Positions 52,477-58,873 of a stretch of 64,000 bases of DNA are shown piece after piece; within the stretch, counting starts at the first letter, position 1; the number at the start of each line of letters is the position of its first letter. Origin of the DNA: Chloroflexota bacterium (GTDB lineage: Bacteria; Chloroflexota; Anaerolineae; UBA2200; JACIWT01). The position numbers and the translations under genes are program-made. The DNA lies in contig JACIWT010000011.1 of NCBI GenBank assembly GCA_014360825.1, positions 1-64,000 on the forward strand, given 5' to 3'. The notes under the pieces were generated by a model. That model did no database searches. It worked only from the letters and a program-made list of their open reading frames with translations, and was not told the origin of the DNA.

Positions 52477-52998
52477 TTATTTCTTCAAACCCTCCAACAT
52501 CGAGCGGGGCGGGAAAAAGATGGCATCGCGGTCGCAGGTGGCGGCACAAGCGTTGCAACCTACCATGCAGTTGAAGGGTTCGGCGACCACTACCTTATCT
52601 TGGGCTTCGTTCCAAGCATATACGCCGAAGGAACAGAACTTCAGGCATTTGCCACAGCCATCGCACTGCTCTTCATGGATGACGGGATACCAAGGGACTT
52701 GTTCGCGGGGTATGCCGCGCCAAGGTTTGTATTGAGGAGCGGCTCTCTCGCCCTCCCCTTTCCTGCAGAATGCGTTGTACTCCCGTAGCAATGCCTCGGC
52801 GTATTCATTCTCTGCGGCAGCAGGGATGTAGTTGTGCTTTCGAGCCAGGGTAAGCAGTTCGCTTTTGAGATCATCGGTTGGCACACGGCCGGAATCCCGC
52901 AGGCTCTTGAAAATGTCGGTTAGCCCGGTCATTCCGACTACCATGTGGCCAACCCGAATTTGCCGATAATCCGATGAGTTTGTCATCTCCGATTTCAC
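52477..52998 (-). CDS. Two-cluster ferredoxin with helical N-terminal extension
   Basis: 173 residues. C-terminal half carries C-D-G-C-G-K-C-L-K-F-C and C-M-V-G-C-N-A-C-A-A-T-C, two 4Fe-4S sites. Before them is I-P-R-E-Q-V-P-W-Y-P-V-I, a signature shared with the ferredoxins at 57284 and 58097. The N-terminal ~85 residues are helical and unique to this copy. It may start at GTG 52998 or ATG 52986. It closes the redox operon and probably passes electrons among its members. Confidence 0.85.
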   Translation of the reverse strand: MKSEMTNSSDYRQIRVGHMVVGMTGLTDIFKSLRDSGRVPTDDLKSELLTLARKHNYIPAAAENEYAEALLREYNAFCRKGEGERAAPQYKPWRGIPREQVPWYPVIHEEQCDGCGKCLKFCSFGVYAWNEAQDKVVVAEPFNCMVGCNACAATCDRDAIFFPPRSMLEGLKK

Positions 52999-53029
52999 TC
53001 TAAGTTAATAGTGTATTTTGCCTGGCCTA

Positions 53030-53563
53030 TCATGACGATGGCATCTCCCCAAAGAGTTCGGCCAGTTTATGAAGTGATTGGCGATATTTCTCTGTATACA
53101 GCGGTGGGCACTGATTCAGGTGGGCTTGCCCGGCGACCAGTTTCAGAGCAAAGACGAAACAGGTGGGCTGCCCACAGGCCTTGCAATTCTCACCGGGCAG
53201 CAAGCGGTACACATCTAAAGCCTTGGGTGGCTCCCGTCGCTCGTAGCGGGGTTCAATCTCTCCTCGCTTCTCCCAGGTGCGGTTCACCATCTCCACTAAG
53301 CGGTCCACCACGGCTCGGGCCTCTTCGCGGTCCTCCAGATTGCTGACCGCGATCTGACGCGGCCGGATGGAGACTGCGCGTCCGCCCATACGCCAGGTGA
53401 GTATTTGCGCCTTGTGATCGTAGATCGCGCCTTTGAGGGTTGCATTCAAATAGGGCAAGACCTCCGCAATGTCCACAGATAGGTCTGCGAAGGCACTCCA
53501 TCGCTCACTACCCGGATCACAAGGCGGGGACGTGACTGTTAACTCATAGCCTTCGATCAACAT
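53030..53563 (-). CDS. Fe-S protein with corrinoid-iron-sulfur-protein-type cluster motif
   Basis: 177 residues. Near residue 125 the motif N-C-K-A-C-G-Q-P-T-C followed by a Cys 17 positions later (C-x2-C-x4-C-x16-C) is the 4Fe-4S binding pattern of the CFeSP large subunit and related Fes domains. The N-terminal ~110 residues are an alpha/beta domain with no clear family. Cytoplasmic; a likely electron carrier in the operon. Confidence 0.82.
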   Translation of the reverse strand: MLIEGYELTVTSPPCDPGSERWSAFADLSVDIAEVLPYLNATLKGAIYDHKAQILTWRMGGRAVSIRPRQIAVSNLEDREEARAVVDRLVEMVNRTWEKRGEIEPRYERREPPKALDVYRLLPGENCKACGQPTCFVFALKLVAGQAHLNQCPPLYTEKYRQSLHKLAELFGEMPSS

Positions 53564-53631
53564 ATGAAATACCTCTCAGTTCTTACACAGCGGGCTGCAA
53601 GCAGCGACGCTCGACATCAGTCACCCTCCGA

Positions 53632-54441
53632 TCATCTGGATTTCCGGGAACGCCACAGAACGATCATCAGCAAGACCACGATACTCAGCCCGAGAGGCAA
53701 AAAGAACCCTTCTGCCAAGGTTGCCGTTTGCCCGATTGTCTCGGTCGGCGCGTGTGAAGGCCCTGGTATTGGGGTGGATGTAAATTCTGCCGTAGGAGGT
53801 GCAGTTTTGGTCTGAGTAGGCATTGCTGTTATCACGCCCAGGCTCGGTATCCTGGTTGGCACACTCGTAACCGACATTGTAACCGTGGGAGTAATAGTAG
53901 GCGTTTTGGTAGGTGCTGTCGTGGCGGTAGCAGTAGCGGTGTTGGTAGCCGTTACAGTCCAGGTTTCCGGTGGCGTCATCGTCGTCGTGCTCGACGGTGC
54001 CTTCGCCGGCGGCAACTTGGTAGCCGTGGGATGCACCGATGTTCTCGTTGGCGACACCGTCTTGGTAGGCGAAGGGACATCGGTCGGCGGTGCTTGGGTG
54101 GCCGTAGGAAGAGCCAGCGATGGCGTAGGCGATGCTGCCGTGGTGGGCGAGAGCGTTTCCGTCGGTGGCACCTCGGTAGCAGTGGGAGAGGCAGGTGGTT
54201 CCGTTGGCGAGACTAACAGTGTGGGCGAAGGAATCTCGGTGGCTGTTGGCTCGGGTGTGGCAGTCGGCGCGCACGGCGTCGGGATAGCAGTCGGTCACTG
54301 TCCCGGTGGTTGTGCTCTCGTCCCCACGGTTCCACCACAATATAGCCCCATTGCACATACTGCCAAGGCTAGGACGCGACATATTTCCAAAACCCCCTTC
54401 CGAGGGGTCATTCGCTGCCGTTTTCCGAGTTCCGCTGTCAT
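53632..54441 (-). CDS. Exported Thr/Pro-stalk protein with C-terminal membrane anchor, interrupted by an in-frame TGA
   Basis: 270 codons from ATG 54441 (TAGGAA upstream). Codons 1-48 give a signal-type hydrophobic segment (V-L-A-L-A-V-C-A-M-G-L-Y-C-G-G). Codon 49 is TGA (54295-54297). The same frame then continues as P-T-A-I-P-T-P and ~170 residues of Thr/Pro/Ser stalk, ending F-F-L-P-L-G-L-S-I-V-V-L-L-M-I-V-L-W-R-S-R-K-S-R, a membrane anchor. No good start lies just after the TGA. It could be a nonsense mutation, readthrough, or recoding; the gene directly upstream has an in-frame TGA too. Confidence 0.7.
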
Positions 54442-54451
54442 AGCGCGATTC

Positions 54452-55261
54452 CTACGAGGCGCTGCCCTTCATCACAACCGGCAGACAAACCACGAAGCGA
54501 GGTGGCGCTTCAAACGCCATCGTTGCCTGATAGACTTCCTTCTGTGCTCCCACAGGATCTTGTACGAAGGCGATAGCCTCGACCAAACTACGATCCTCGG
54601 CGGATACTGGTTCTGACAAAGCCGAGTACGTGTTGCGCAGTCCCGGCACTAGACTACCGGCAGGAAGGGGGCCAATGACCTGTAGGGCGTAGAAGGGGGT
54701 CATAGCCACCTTGCGCTGCGTATATATGGCGAAGAAAACCTGGGCATTTTCGATCGTGGAGGAACACGTAGGTGTAATGATCACAGAAAGGGCCAACTGG
54801 TTGCCTTCCCAGGTCCGTGTAGCAGCTATATCCATAGGGCTGGGCCTGCTGAGTTCGGCTTCTATCAGCGGGCGATAGGCCGCGTAATAGTCAGGCTGGT
54901 AACCCGTGATGTGACCAGAAAATCCATCCACCATCACGTTAGGCCAGTCAAATGATCCAGCATAGTAGGCCAATCGTGACTGCCCCAACTGGTAATTGAA
55001 AGCCAGATCATACTCCAAGATCAACAATTGTTGGCGCGAATATTCCGCTCCCAGACGTTCCACCGCCCGACCCGCGGACGGACTCGGACAGGGCCCTCAA
55101 GTAGTGTACCAACAGAAGTGCTCGAACAGCACAGCGCGTGGGCTGTCGGCTTTCACTTCAGAAGCCAAGGCAAACAGAGCCACAAGGATGAGCACTGATA
55201 TCCAAAACACGACTTGCTTGGGTCTATGTATTTCTATTTCACGCTCGTATTCGTGACTCAC
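54452..55261 (-). CDS. Secreted thioredoxin-fold protein, candidate selenoprotein (U-G-P-C)
   Basis: 270 codons from GTG 55261 to TAG 54452, with one in-frame TGA as codon 55 (55097-55099). Read through, the protein has a membrane/signal segment (residues 17-34), then A-V-L-F-E-H-F-C-W-Y-T-T-U-G-P-C-P, the normal start of an Omp28/thioredoxin-like domain, with TGA exactly where the first Cys of C-G-P-C belongs. Frame, spacing and composition continue unbroken for 215 residues (L-A-Y-Y-A-G-S-F-D-W-P, V-D-G). A 7-bp hairpin follows the TGA. It ends R-F-V-V-C-L-P-V-V-M-K-G-S-A-S, the exported-protein tail. It sits 15 nt after the CcdA/thioredoxin gene, its likely reductant. The alternative is a recent nonsense mutation, with translation restarting at GTG 55063. 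Confidence 0.72.
55063..55081 (-). promoter_or_regulatory. Candidate bacterial SECIS hairpin
   Basis: CCGTCCG, loop CGGGT, CGGGCGG: a continuous 7-bp stem (one G-U) whose G-rich five-base loop begins 23 nt after the TGA. Bacterial SECIS elements sit within the coding region just after UGA with a G (and often GGU) in the apical loop, which this fits. Confidence 0.55.
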
Positions 55262-55276
55262 GTCACACTCTTTTAC

Positions 55277-57193
55277 TTAAAGCAGACTACTGAAAAGCCA
55301 AACGGCCAGTGCAGCAAAGAGGATGGCGGTGAGCAATTTGACGGGGGCCACGTGCTGCTCCAGGAAAGATCCCAATTGCCGCGACGTAGTGCCGTAAAAG
55401 GCGAGCAAGAAAACTATCACCAATGGCGCAATAAACATTAAATTATACAGCACCAAGTACAAGACTCCGTAAGCACGTAACTCCGCCACGCCAGCCACAA
55501 AGATGATAGTGGGCAAATACACCTGGCCAGTGCAGGCCAACTCCAATAACGAGACGACGACACCCGTTCCCAATGCTCCCCACACAAAACCGCTCAATCG
55601 CGATTGGGTGCGGATGGTATGGTGTATCTGCTGGTGAACGCGTTTGGGCAGCCGCAGACGCATTTCTTCCGGGCGGCCGCGCCGAGCCTGGATGAAATCA
55701 TAGGCGCTGAGTATAGCGAAAGCAGCACATAAGAGTGCCGTCGCCAAGTAGACCAGGCGGGACAGAATGCTCAAGAAGGCCAGCGAGGTGATGAATTTCA
55801 ATGCTCCCAGACCGACTAGTAGGTAGGTGAGGAACACGCCCAGGGTGAAAGCCGCACCCACCAGTATGATATCGCGCCCTTTGCGTCCGATAAAAGCCAG
55901 GTAGGAGATGAAGAAGACGATGGTTGTGAAAGCGCAGGGGTTCACACCGTCCAGCAACCCTGCCCCAATGACGGTGAGCACCCCCAACGATCGGAAGCGC
56001 CGGATAATGCTCTCGGTGGAGGCGTTGGGATCGAAATCGCGCCAGATCGGGTCCGCACCTGTGGCCACATAACGTGCCAACAGCGATTCTATCTCTCGAG
56101 CATTTACGTCTTGGCCAACTAAGGCATCCTTCCCCACGAAAACAGCCGGCGCAGTCAGCCGCTTCTCTTCGGGAACGGCAGTGGCTTCGCCGAGCCATTC
56201 GAGCAGCGCAGCCTCAGCCCGGGCATCGAAGGACACTACCACCAGTTGGGGATATCGAGTTTTCAGAAATCTTAGATCTAGTTCTGCCCGGTCACATTCC
56301 TGACAACCCGGCTGGTAGAAATAGGCGAGGTAGATAAGAGGCAACCCTGCGCTTTCGCTGGAACCGCACCACCGACACCCCTCTTCGGGCAGCCGTTCGA
56401 AACGCTCCTCGACTCGCGACGGGGTCTCAGTAACCGTCTCTATTTCATCTGGAGTCGGCAATGGGGCACCCCCGGACTCAAGATACTGCGACACCAGGAA
56501 AGGCAGCCTCTCTCTGATCTCTGCTTCCCCGATCAGCGCGTGTTTGCCGATGAAAACTTCCGGCATAGAGGGCTTTTTGACGCCGTATGCTTCCTCCAAT
56601 GCGCGGATCAAGCGGTAGTTCTCCACCGATGTCTCGACATCGTGCTCCATCACTGCCAATCGCGCGCCGTACTGGCTTTGGAGGACGCCGATCACCTCCT
56701 CGCGGATAACCGCACACTCCGGACACTTCCTGCTGTAAAAGAAGCGCAGGTGCACAATGGATTCAGGCTGGGCAGTCGGAGTGGCAACTGGGGACGCGGT
56801 AGGGTCGGGGAAATCCGTGCCCCCTGCTTCGAAATAGGCAGCGATCACCTGGCCGGCCCGGGCGCGAATATCCTCTTCGCCAAGCAGAACCGTATCGCCC
56901 ACGAACATCTCAGGGATCGTGGCTATATCCGGGGTCACACCGTAGATGGCTTCCAGCGCCAGCAGTTGCGAATAGACTTCAGGGTCGGAAATCTCCAACA
57001 GTTTGATTGCAAGCCGGTCTCCATACTCCATTTGAAGTTGCGGCACAATCTCTTGCAAGACGCGTTGGCAGTGAGGACAGTCTTCAGCGTAGAAAAGAAG
57101 CGCCCGCACAACCGGCTCGTCAGCCAATACAGAGTTGCAGAAAACAAGCCCCGCTATCGCGAGAACGATCACACCAGTTGCCACACGATTCAT
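55277..57193 (-). CDS. Three thioredoxin-like domains fused to a CcdA/DsbD-type transmembrane electron carrier
   Basis: 638 residues. Signal segment, then three small thioredoxin-like domains with active-site pairs C39-P-H-C42, C-P-E-C (~167) and C-Q-E-C (~300), each followed by the P-E-M/V-F-V/I-G-x-x-x-L-G/I pattern. The first two domains are linked by short Thr/Pro stretches. From ~410 a CcdA domain of six helices carries G-V-N-P-C-A-F-T-T and the second conserved Cys in L-A-C-T-G-Q-V-Y-L-P. It should move electrons from a cytoplasmic dithiol across the membrane to the outer thioredoxin domains and on to the U-G-P-C protein encoded next. Confidence 0.92.
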   Translation of the reverse strand: MNRVATGVIVLAIAGLVFCNSVLADEPVVRALLFYAEDCPHCQRVLQEIVPQLQMEYGDRLAIKLLEISDPEVYSQLLALEAIYGVTPDIATIPEMFVGDTVLLGEEDIRARAGQVIAAYFEAGGTDFPDPTASPVATPTAQPESIVHLRFFYSRKCPECAVIREEVIGVLQSQYGARLAVMEHDVETSVENYRLIRALEEAYGVKKPSMPEVFIGKHALIGEAEIRERLPFLVSQYLESGGAPLPTPDEIETVTETPSRVEERFERLPEEGCRWCGSSESAGLPLIYLAYFYQPGCQECDRAELDLRFLKTRYPQLVVVSFDARAEAALLEWLGEATAVPEEKRLTAPAVFVGKDALVGQDVNAREIESLLARYVATGADPIWRDFDPNASTESIIRRFRSLGVLTVIGAGLLDGVNPCAFTTIVFFISYLAFIGRKGRDIILVGAAFTLGVFLTYLLVGLGALKFITSLAFLSILSRLVYLATALLCAAFAILSAYDFIQARRGRPEEMRLRLPKRVHQQIHHTIRTQSRLSGFVWGALGTGVVVSLLELACTGQVYLPTIIFVAGVAELRAYGVLYLVLYNLMFIAPLVIVFLLAFYGTTSRQLGSFLEQHVAPVKLLTAILFAALAVWLFSSLL

Positions 57194-57283
57194 TTGAGGT
57201 TCATCTTCCTGTTCCCGTATCTACCGTTTGCCGCTGGAGCCAGGCATACACCAACGAATGGCTTGTCCGTGCTCCAAGCACTT

Positions 57284-57571
57284 TTACGCACCAGAATGAT
57301 CAGCCGAGACCTCCTGCGCTGCTGCGCGCATGGCGGCCACCAATTCCTCTTTGGTCGGGAAGTGGATGGCACCAGCCTCGCACAGGTTGGCGCAGGCGCT
57401 ACATCCCACTACACAGTTGTACGGGTTGGTAACAAGGGGATGACTTTCATCATCATCCCATTCGAAGACGCCATTTCCGCAGAAGTTAAAGCATTCTTGG
57501 CACCCGACACATACTTCGTAGTCAATGGTCGGATACCAAGGGATTTTCTCTCTCGGGATTCTCGAACTCAT
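57284..57571 (-). CDS. Small two-cluster ferredoxin
   Basis: 95 residues. I-P-R-E-K-I-P-W-Y-P-T-I then C-V-G-C-Q-E-C-F-N-F-C and C-V-V-G-C-S-A-C-A-N-L-C, two 4Fe-4S clusters. Shares the I-P-R-x3-P-W-Y-P-x-I start with the ferredoxins at 52477 and 58097. GGAGG upstream. Cytoplasmic electron carrier of the operon. Confidence 0.9.
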   Translation of the reverse strand: MSSRIPREKIPWYPTIDYEVCVGCQECFNFCGNGVFEWDDDESHPLVTNPYNCVVGCSACANLCEAGAIHFPTKEELVAAMRAAAQEVSADHSGA

Positions 57572-57670
57572 GACAGTATTAACCTCCAGGTTGATTGCTG
57601 TTTTGTGCGCCTGGCGGGCTTTGTATTCCCACCAGGCGCAGTTGCTTAGAACTTGGTAGTGCTTGTGGAC

Positions 57671-58036
57671 CTATTTCTCGGTCAGTTTCTCAATAGTCTC
57701 CGCCACTTTTTTCATTGCATCCTCAGTGGACATATTGCGGAGATCGAGGGAGACTACCTGTTTGTCGAAGTCACCACCCATTTCTGCGAAGACGTCTTTG
57801 AACATCTTACGCTGCATCTTGGGGTCGCAGGCTCCGACAACATAGGTTATCCCCGGCTTAGCGTAATCGCGCCAGAACCGGTCGCCATCATCCACGCAGA
57901 GTTGTGGGTGAACGATGGCATACTCCACACCCAACTCTGTACGCACGTAGTTGATCAGCCTCCAGAGATCCAGTTTGGAGAACCCAGGGCACTCTCCCGT
58001 GCAAATGCACATTACGAATCTCGGTTTCTCGCTCAT
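57671..58036 (-). CDS. HdrA N-terminal-domain-like protein
   Basis: 121 residues, GGAGGAAAAA upstream. Resembles the N-terminal domain of heterodisulfide reductase subunit A: V-M-C-I-C-T-G-E-C-P-G at the start, H-P-Q-L-C-V-D-D in the middle and Y-V-V-G-A-C-D-P-K-M-Q-R-K-M-F at ~85. Four to five cysteines could hold a cluster. The flavin domain of full HdrA is absent, so it is probably a small Fe-S or thiol partner acting with the flanking ferredoxins. Confidence 0.78.
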   Translation of the reverse strand: MSEKPRFVMCICTGECPGFSKLDLWRLINYVRTELGVEYAIVHPQLCVDDGDRFWRDYAKPGITYVVGACDPKMQRKMFKDVFAEMGGDFDKQVVSLDLRNMSTEDAMKKVAETIEKLTEK

Positions 58037-58096
58037 TGCGTTTTTCCTCCTTCCTTGAGTTGTTTTATTGCAATCGAGATAGTGATTCTTTGGCTT

Positions 58097-58390
58097 CTAC
58101 TGAGGAGGATATTCTCCCCGCAGTTCTTTGATGACTGCTTTGACCGATGCTTTGTCTGGGAATGAGATAGCATTGGCATCGCACACGAATTGGCAGCTCT
58201 GGCAGTATACCTCGCAGTTGTACGGGTTGGCTACCGATACACTCGGTGAACCCCCATCCAACACGTACACATCGTGTTTGCAGTGCATCACACAAGCGCT
58301 GCACCCTTTCACGCAAGCGTCTGGATCTATGCGCGGATACCAGGGAATCAGTGCTCGTGGTATACCCAGGTAGCGTTTGTCTTGCTGCAT
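58097..58390 (-). CDS. Small ferredoxin, third paralogue
   Basis: 97 residues: I-P-R-A-L-I-P-W-Y-P-R-I, then C-V-K-G-C-S-A-C-V-M-H-C (first site with an extra residue) and C-E-V-Y-C-Q-S-C-Q-F-V-C. First structural gene after the regulator. Two 4Fe-4S clusters are likely, the first with altered spacing. Confidence 0.88.
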   Translation of the reverse strand: MQQDKRYLGIPRALIPWYPRIDPDACVKGCSACVMHCKHDVYVLDGGSPSVSVANPYNCEVYCQSCQFVCDANAISFPDKASVKAVIKELRGEYPPQ

Positions 58391-58430
58391 TGTTGTCCAG
58401 GTCCTTTCTATTGTTAAGGTGTATTTTGAA

Positions 58431-58808
58431 CTACAGATGAGACCGTTCCGCCCGGCACTCAGGACAGGAGCAATTCAGCTCTGCACGCGCGGGTAGTCTG
58501 ATTTGCAGTAGAGACTCCTCACCGGACGCGGTAGCCAGGCGAAGGCGAACCTCGCGCAATACCCGCACAATGTCCGTGTCCGCCAGATGGTAGTAGACGT
58601 AGAGGCCCACCTTCCTATCGGCGACCAGTCCTGCCTCTTTTAGGATAGCCAGTTGCTGTGAGACATAGGCCTGGCGCTGTTGCAGAACAGCCACAAGATG
58701 GCAGACGCAAGCCTCGCCTTGGGTCAGTATGTCTAGGATCTGCAGACGCACTGGATGCGCCAGAGCGCTGTAGAATCGCGCCTCTCGGTCAAACACCTCT
58801 TGTGTCAT
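58431..58808 (-). CDS. ArsR-family transcriptional repressor
   Basis: 125 residues from ATG 58808; a TTG eight codons upstream overlaps the operator. Winged helix with A-L-A-H-P-V-R-L-Q-I-L-D-I-L, C-V-C-H-L-V, Q-A-Y-V-S-Q-Q-L-A-I-L-K-E-A-G-L-V and Y-H-L-A-D. Cys pair C-V-C in the helix before the recognition helix is the arsenic/metal type position, and extra Cys lie in N-C-S-C-P-E-C at the tail. It probably senses a thiophilic metal(loid) or a redox signal and represses this operon. Confidence 0.9.
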   Translation of the reverse strand: MTQEVFDREARFYSALAHPVRLQILDILTQGEACVCHLVAVLQQRQAYVSQQLAILKEAGLVADRKVGLYVYYHLADTDIVRVLREVRLRLATASGEESLLQIRLPARAELNCSCPECRAERSHL

Positions 58809-58824
58809 ATTCTGCCCCAGACTG

Positions 58825-58842
58825 TATTCCAAATATGGAATA
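58825..58842. promoter_or_regulatory. Putative ArsR operator
   Basis: TATTCCA-AATA-TGGAATA, perfect 7-nt arms, placed directly after the -10 element, where binding would block transcription. Confidence 0.7.
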
Positions 58843-58844
58843 TA

Positions 58845-58873
58845 CTTATAGCATAGTTTCGCTGAGATGTCAA
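58845..58873 (-). promoter_or_regulatory. Promoter of the ArsR/ferredoxin/thioredoxin operon
   Basis: Minus strand perfect TTGACA (58868-58873), 17-nt spacer, TATAAG (58845-58850), 37 nt before the ArsR start. Confidence 0.8.

Follow-up and report, generated by a model that had tools for sequence, protein, structure and literature searches.

The first 64,000 nucleotides of contig JACIWT010000011.1 of an anaerobic Chloroflexota bacterium (assembly GCA_014360825.1; host genome 2.89 Mb, 98% complete), hereafter the window, carry a run of nine genes on the minus strand (58832-52477). Their order is ArsR, ferredoxin 1, a protein resembling the N-terminal domain of HdrA (HdrA-N), ferredoxin 2, a thioredoxin (Trx)/CcdA-like protein, a TGA-containing exported protein, a PT-rich frame, a PF04060 protein, and ferredoxin 3 (Table 1). 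Every gene named in a preliminary description of this DNA was found on that strand; the gene calls were chosen among the six reading frames in this analysis and are not a curated annotation. The arsR gene comes first in the run, as in ars operons with redox genes. Our leading reading, which falls just short of even in our estimation, is that the run forms an operon against metalloid stress, arsenic being the likeliest, under ArsR control and with an Fe-S electron-input module as its conserved core.

Table 1. Features of the minus-strand run, in order of transcription
Feature	Position	Strand	Basis
Operator-like inverted repeat TATTCCA-N4-TGGAATA, 5' of arsR	58825..58842	-	Sequence scan
ArsR/SmtB-family repressor, CVC motif; likely ATG start 58808	58431..58832	-	NF033788, 86.9 bits
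Ferredoxin 1, two 4Fe-4S motifs, IPRALIPWYPRI	58097..58390	-	Motif and profile search
Stand-alone HdrA N-terminal-domain-like protein, 121 aa, Cys10/12/16/47/70	57671..58036	-	Profile, fold, cysteines
Ferredoxin 2, two 4Fe-4S motifs, IPREKIPWYPTI	57284..57571	-	Motif and profile search
Exported triple thioredoxin-like/CcdA(ArsG)-like membrane protein; CPHC, CPEC, CQEC	55277..57193	-	Motifs, weak ArsG match
Probable exported selenoprotein, U-G-P-C, TGA 55097-55099	54452..55261	-	In-frame TGA, homologues, Sec machinery
PT-rich frame, hydrophobic N-terminal stretch, C-terminal transmembrane-like end; interrupted by TGA 54295-54297	53632..54444	-	Sequence
Fe-S protein with a PF04060 domain, known from corrinoid/iron-sulfur protein and RnfB, at the C-terminus	53030..53563	-	Pfam/NCBIfam search
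Ferredoxin 3: two-cluster ferredoxin with a small NYIP/ALLREY domain fused at its N-terminus, IPREQVPWYPVI	52477..52998	-	Motif, Pfam search

The HdrA-N protein of the window gave no match to NCBIfam or Pfam at E 0.1. Within its family, 14 of the 22 members matched an HdrA model at E values up to 0.5 (best, 5.9e-06), and a PDB search with the 22-member profile returned HdrA chains alone up to E 0.1 (3e-4, 0.006, and 0.017). The AlphaFold model of the protein (predicted local distance difference test score, pLDDT, 91) aligned with the first ~130 residues of HdrA (5odc, 7bkb, and 8rvy) at Z scores of 11.1-13.1 and a root-mean-square deviation of 2.5-2.7 over 116-118 residues, the next row having a Z of 8.7; Foldseek gave seven HdrA chains under E 0.001. 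Cys10, Cys12, Cys47, and Cys70 were common to the stand-alone proteins and to 14/14 HdrA sequences from relatives. Profile, fold, and cysteines thus agree with the N-terminal Fe-S domain of HdrA, the identity that had been proposed for this protein.

Unlike HdrA, the window protein has neither the flavin-binding thioredoxin-reductase domain nor the ferredoxin domains (no such Pfam domain was found in its 121 aa), and it carries one additional cysteine. This residue, Cys16, was present in 12/12 aligned stand-alone sequences, where HdrA has Ile in 14/14, and was invariant across the 22-row family alignment (22/22). To our knowledge, the domain has been described only as part of HdrA and not as a free-standing protein. 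According to an excerpt of PMC9012536, one ligand of the N-terminal cluster of HdrA is supplied by a partner subunit. An extra cysteine of its own would therefore fit a free-standing form, in which Cys16 may stand in for the ligand from the partner.

A contig scan located 28 loci with 62-80% identity to the window HdrA-N protein, all titled as metagenome-assembled genomes (MAGs), from Chloroflexi, Anaerolineae, Dehalococcoidia, Omnitrophota, Acetothermia, Coprothermobacterota, Nitrososphaeria, Bathyarchaeota, and unplaced sources. With wider stretches added and duplicates removed, 37 non-redundant loci were compared, the window counted among them; neighbouring families were named from single representatives. 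In 31/37 loci the HdrA-N gene had a same-strand ferredoxin gene no more than 400 bp away, and in 33/37 no more than 2500 bp away. The four loci without one were L045 and L072 (in both, HdrA-N gene <400 bp from the contig end), L059, and L073. These ferredoxins were counted by a motif test (4Fe-4S motif plus WxP element) and not from the loose ferredoxin cluster (cluster 1), which also holds DGC-domain proteins and stand-alone NYIP domains. At genome level, a related ferredoxin occurred in 22 of 150 nearer relatives, including all 15 that encode the HdrA-N protein. A functional tie between HdrA-N and ferredoxin is well supported by this context, and the conserved core of the locus, as judged from sequence, is this pair, both predicted to be cytoplasmic.

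ArsR genes lay on the same strand within 10 kb in 21/37 loci, were upstream in 17, and had the CVC motif in 18. The refuting case set out in the preliminary description, in which relatives never show these genes together, is thereby dismissed. Other same-strand partners within 10 genes were ArsE-type Trx (12 of the 37), ArsP-like (9), PF04060 (8), SufC/ABC (8), SufBD (6), CcdA/ArsG-like (6), ACR3-like (5), MIP18-like (4), and low-molecular-weight ArsC-like (3) proteins. At least one of ArsR, ArsP-like, ACR3-like, ArsE-type Trx, and ArsC-like genes was found in 25/37 loci under the same limits. Locus L053 has the order ArsD, ErpA/IscA-like, HdrA-N, ferredoxin, ferredoxin, ArsA, ArsR-like, ArsC-like. 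Its ArsD scored 116.6 bits (cut-off 90) and its ArsA exceeded the TRC40/GET3/ArsA cut-off; the ArsR-like protein reached 53.0 bits (cut-off 55) and the ArsC-like protein 107 bits (cut-off 174). This locus was counted as ars-linked through its ArsC-like gene, its ArsR-like gene falling outside the ArsR cluster.

The linkage was also evident at genome scale. The 15 class relatives with HdrA-N held 42 NF033788 matches in ~50 Mb, and 14 of these, in 10 of the 15 genomes, were no more than 5 kb away from HdrA-N, the expectation being ~0.13 genomes. The five genomes without ArsR linkage (G089, G033, G093, G117, and G066) all belong to a diverged HdrA-N subfamily with 36-42% identity. Loci of this subfamily (L039-L044) mostly lack ArsR; their neighbours are SufC/SufBD genes and, recognized by eye, TauE/SafE-like and NifX-like genes.

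In the window itself, ArsR matched NF033788 well above the cut-off of 55 bits, and its CVC motif occupies residues 42-44; we presume that this motif has the As(III) role known from the literature on the E. coli R773 ArsR. The inverted repeat directly 5' of the probable arsR ATG is a candidate for the ArsR operator that the preliminary description had pointed out, and an ATATTC...GAATAT repeat 5' of arsR was also present in L035, L036, and L037 (4/28 upstream stretches, window counted). The single promoter claimed there was not borne out, as a sigma-70 scan gave 5 sites vs a shuffle mean of 4.6. Terminator-like sites exceeded those in shuffles (11 vs 5.9); on the minus strand, five are internal to coding frames of the run, and a sixth closely follows ferredoxin 3 (52460-52435). 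Strand and spacing suggest that one transcript may span the run. Metal(loid) control, also part of that description, gained ground from the CVC-bearing ArsR in 18/37 loci together with the ArsP-like, ACR3-like, ArsE-type, ArsC-like, ArsD, and ArsA neighbours, and metalloid-type control of the operon is well supported by this context.

Could the run be an accidental neighbourhood of unrelated genes that share a strand? The flanks vary widely among loci and terminator-like sites occur inside the run, though in coding frames, but the HdrA-N/ferredoxin pair and its ArsR linkage are kept across phyla, and we find this explanation hardly credible. The conserved neighbourhood argues that the grouping is more than chance. 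Chance is unlikely for the core pair, but it may still account for the presence of the PT-rich frame and of the selenoprotein.

An HdrA-N protein above the HdrA background was found in 15 of the 150 nearer-relative genomes and in 2 of 400 genomes sampled evenly across the phylum. The window protein shared 77-79% identity with its nearest relatives in other phyla. In a tree from which L045, L072, and L073 were omitted as fragmentary or truncated, the named rows nearest to the window protein were Chloroflexota, some of them Anaerolineae, and Chloroflexota and Omnitrophota were each split (4 and 3 changes), with modest support for a short protein. Horizontal spread of HdrA-N is likely on this evidence, though not proven. 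The MAG with locus L053 is titled Coprothermobacterota and its HdrA-N sits among Omnitrophota rows, so transfer or misbinning is possible there.

The three ferredoxins of the window share the signature noted in the preliminary description, each with a literal match (IPRALIPWYPRI, IPREKIPWYPTI, and IPREQVPWYPVI). The strict form is rarer in relatives (7/54 members of the loose cluster); the wider form is hPRxxhPW[YF]P. The predicted fold of ferredoxin 3 had a mean pLDDT of 62, its N-terminal domain being good. The NYIP/ALLREY domain at this end was also seen free-standing near the HdrA-N gene at L034:7921-8217 and L052:9551-9799, and these free-standing forms had no Pfam or NCBIfam match.

Taken as a metalloid-stress operon, the run might work as follows. 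As(III), or another thiophilic metal like it, would release ArsR. Reduced ferredoxin, plentiful in anaerobes, would donate electrons to the HdrA-N protein, which would hold a [4Fe-4S] cluster by its own cysteines and would act as a ferredoxin:disulfide reductase for thioredoxin-type partners. Candidate acceptors are an ArsE-type thioredoxin, an ArsC-type reductase, or, in the window, the triple-Trx/CcdA-like protein. Arsenicals would be reduced or held as the trivalent thiol form for export, and the module would replace the supply from NADPH and thioredoxin reductase on which ordinary ars operons draw. A search of the window genome gave no ACR3, so the role of membrane partner may fall to the CcdA(ArsG)-like protein in this organism. 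The only ArsP_1 match of the genome is a half-length frame of 187 aa (G000:C8:21633-21992). A more far-reaching version, in which the HdrA-N domain and its dedicated ferredoxins form a new ferredoxin-dependent disulfide or arsenical reductase, analogous to thioredoxin reductase but built on Fe-S and spread by transfer among anaerobic bacteria and archaea for arsenic detoxification, is conceivable, though we lean against it.

Several observations weigh against an arsenic-type operon. Twelve of the 37 loci have none of the five ars-type families on the same strand within 10 genes; some of these lie on short contigs, and an ArsR gene is on the opposite strand in L063, L064, and L073, yet L043, L044, L061, L065, and L067 are long and still lack ars-type partners. 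ArsR occurs in just one of the six loci of the diverged subfamily. The window operon contains no known catalytic arsenic enzyme, and its single candidate for efflux or arsenate reduction is the CcdA/ArsG-like protein with a match at E 0.013; such genes are present in many relatives. The cluster, the potential, and the disulfide-reductase activity of the HdrA-N protein are predictions, and the relatives, MAGs included, are known from genome sequence alone. Finally, the linkage to SufC/SufBD fits another role.

That other role is protection or repair of Fe-S clusters under metalloid stress, with HdrA-N and the ferredoxins acting as cluster carriers or as expendable thiol/Fe-S sinks alongside SUF, induced through ArsR since As(III) damages Fe-S enzymes. 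It is the strongest rival because SufC/SufBD recur in 6/37 loci: SufC-like and SufBD-core genes share the strand of HdrA-N at a distance of up to 10 genes there. They occur in both subfamilies and adjoin HdrA-N in L039, L043, and L066. MIP18-like genes in 4/37 loci and the ErpA/IscA-like gene beside HdrA-N in L053 point the same way. However, 31/37 loci, the window among them, have no SufBD nearby, and the near-constant two-cluster ferredoxin partner resembles an electron donor. We consider cluster repair improbable on balance.

A different route had been suggested in the preliminary description, with low-potential electrons passing from ferredoxin via the HdrA-like protein and the CcdA-like protein across the membrane to exported thiol/selenol proteins. 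The Trx/CcdA-like protein (638 aa) has a hydrophobic N-terminus, the motifs CPHC39, CPEC157, and CQEC297 (plus CRWC273), and a hydrophobic C-terminal half. The earlier call of a CcdA with three CxxC domains therefore held for the three motifs preceding the hydrophobic half; the CcdA identity was weak by profile, with no Pfam match and, in a profile search with the CcdA-like part, no PDB match. The NCBIfam ArsG model was matched by the window protein at E 0.013 and by two homologues at 2e-6 and 1.5e-4, all below the cut-off. The cysteines of NPCAF and ELACTGQ were kept in 5/5 members of the Trx-CcdA family (window counted). This family occurs in 5/37 loci, all of the window's class, a count that excludes the proteins of L062 and L066, which are of another membrane type (VKOR-like by eye) and were joined via their thioredoxin parts.

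The U-G-P-C protein that would receive these electrons has a single in-frame TGA. A TGA stood at the same aligned position in three of the five homologues found in the 150 genomes and was missing from the other two (4/6 counting the window). Contig C9 of the window genome encodes SelB (353 bits; cut-off 242) and, ~5 kb away, carries a sequence that matches tRNA-Sec over its full length (71 bits; cut-off 47); the ARAGORN run concerned the tRNA-Sec locus of another genome and not that of the window. As SelB and tRNA-Sec are present in the genome and the TGA is aligned in 3/5 homologues, the codon at 55097-55099 is likely read as selenocysteine, which upholds the earlier view of a selenoprotein. 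A bacterial selenocysteine insertion sequence (SECIS) hairpin was sought 3' of the TGA and not demonstrated (fold z -0.9). The window selenoprotein had no NCBIfam or Pfam match, and together with its homologues (L079-L083) it may represent an unnamed exported selenoprotein family.

For the transmembrane route speak the operon order, with the probable selenoprotein directly downstream of the Trx-CcdA gene, the triple-CxxC export arm with its conserved cysteines, and the Trx-like genes with hydrophobic N-termini that adjoin CcdA-like genes in loci such as L055, L035, and L033. On the other hand, Trx-CcdA genes are limited to 5/37 loci, the selenoprotein was not found in the other 36 of the 37 HdrA-N loci, and position is what would link it to the operon. 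The CcdA identity is weak, and PMC2963123 rates transmembrane electron flow as less likely in ars operons, ArsC being cytoplasmic. In this genome, electrons might reach exported selenol proteins by such a path, but it is not the conserved core; as an account of the locus, we regard it as unlikely.

The PF04060 protein raises the further idea of an hgcAB-like role in reductive activation or methyl chemistry, in which the ferredoxins and this protein would keep a corrinoid or methyl-metalloid enzyme reduced. Its domain is nearest to that of the corrinoid/iron-sulfur protein, and the best curated matches of the window ferredoxins include an HgcAB-like fusion and HgcB, far under the cut-offs. An excerpt of PMC10349881, on mercury methylation, places hgcAB under ArsR in one strain, which resembles the present locus in having ArsR over a ferredoxin-containing gene pair in anaerobes with ars genes nearby. 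However, no corrinoid-binding or methyltransferase match was obtained among the window proteins scanned, and the PF04060 protein lay on the same strand in 8/37 loci. We hold this idea to be very improbable. Membership in hgcAB was tried and rejected: HgcB reached 22-32 bits vs a cut-off of 99, and no HgcA match, the corrinoid protein of that system, was found among the window proteins scanned.

Among described systems, ars operons with CcdA and thioredoxin (PMC2963123) come close, sharing the ars setting, the CcdA-like protein, an ArsE/MTH895-type thioredoxin, and, in some loci, ArsC. They differ in that the words ferredoxin and heterodisulfide do not occur in that paper, whereas ferredoxin and HdrA-N form the core here. 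The NCBIfam models ArsE and ArsG (arsenical export proteins) are likewise related, since the neighbouring small Trx meets the cut-off of the MTH895/ArsE subfamily and CcdA-like proteins match ArsG, but the ArsG matches stay below the cut-off (best, 68 vs 200 bits). We know of no HdrA-N protein or ferredoxin in the ArsE/ArsG set. In Fusibacter 3D3, ferredoxin genes adjoin arsC and ferredoxin was proposed as the driver of arsenate reduction (PMC9751042, excerpt); HdrA is not mentioned in that excerpt. Membership in the SAO or Tso system was likewise not supported, the SaoE, TsoR, and TsoB matches all being below cut-offs. Searches of open-licence PMC text yielded one paper with a passing mention of SAO, none for the Tso phrase used, and none seen to describe the HdrA-N/ferredoxin pair, although mentions within unopened papers are possible.

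Arsenic detoxification is known mostly from organisms that draw electrons from NADPH via thioredoxin or glutathione. The repeated pair beside arsenic-resistance genes in distantly related bacteria and archaea points to an unstudied Fe-S way of handling arsenic-like stress. If this is true, anaerobes in Chloroflexota, Omnitrophota, and several archaeal groups would detoxify arsenic with their own reductant, ferredoxin, and the N-terminal domain of HdrA would have a free-standing job in a small, testable pair of soluble proteins.

Two minor observations concern neighbouring frames. DGC-domain putative zinc-binding proteins lie near the HdrA-N gene at L031:9965-10504 (Pfam match) and L040:6151-6558 (by eye). 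In the PT-rich frame of the window, the TGA stands directly after the hydrophobic N-terminal stretch and may reflect a sequencing error, a broken gene, or other recoding.

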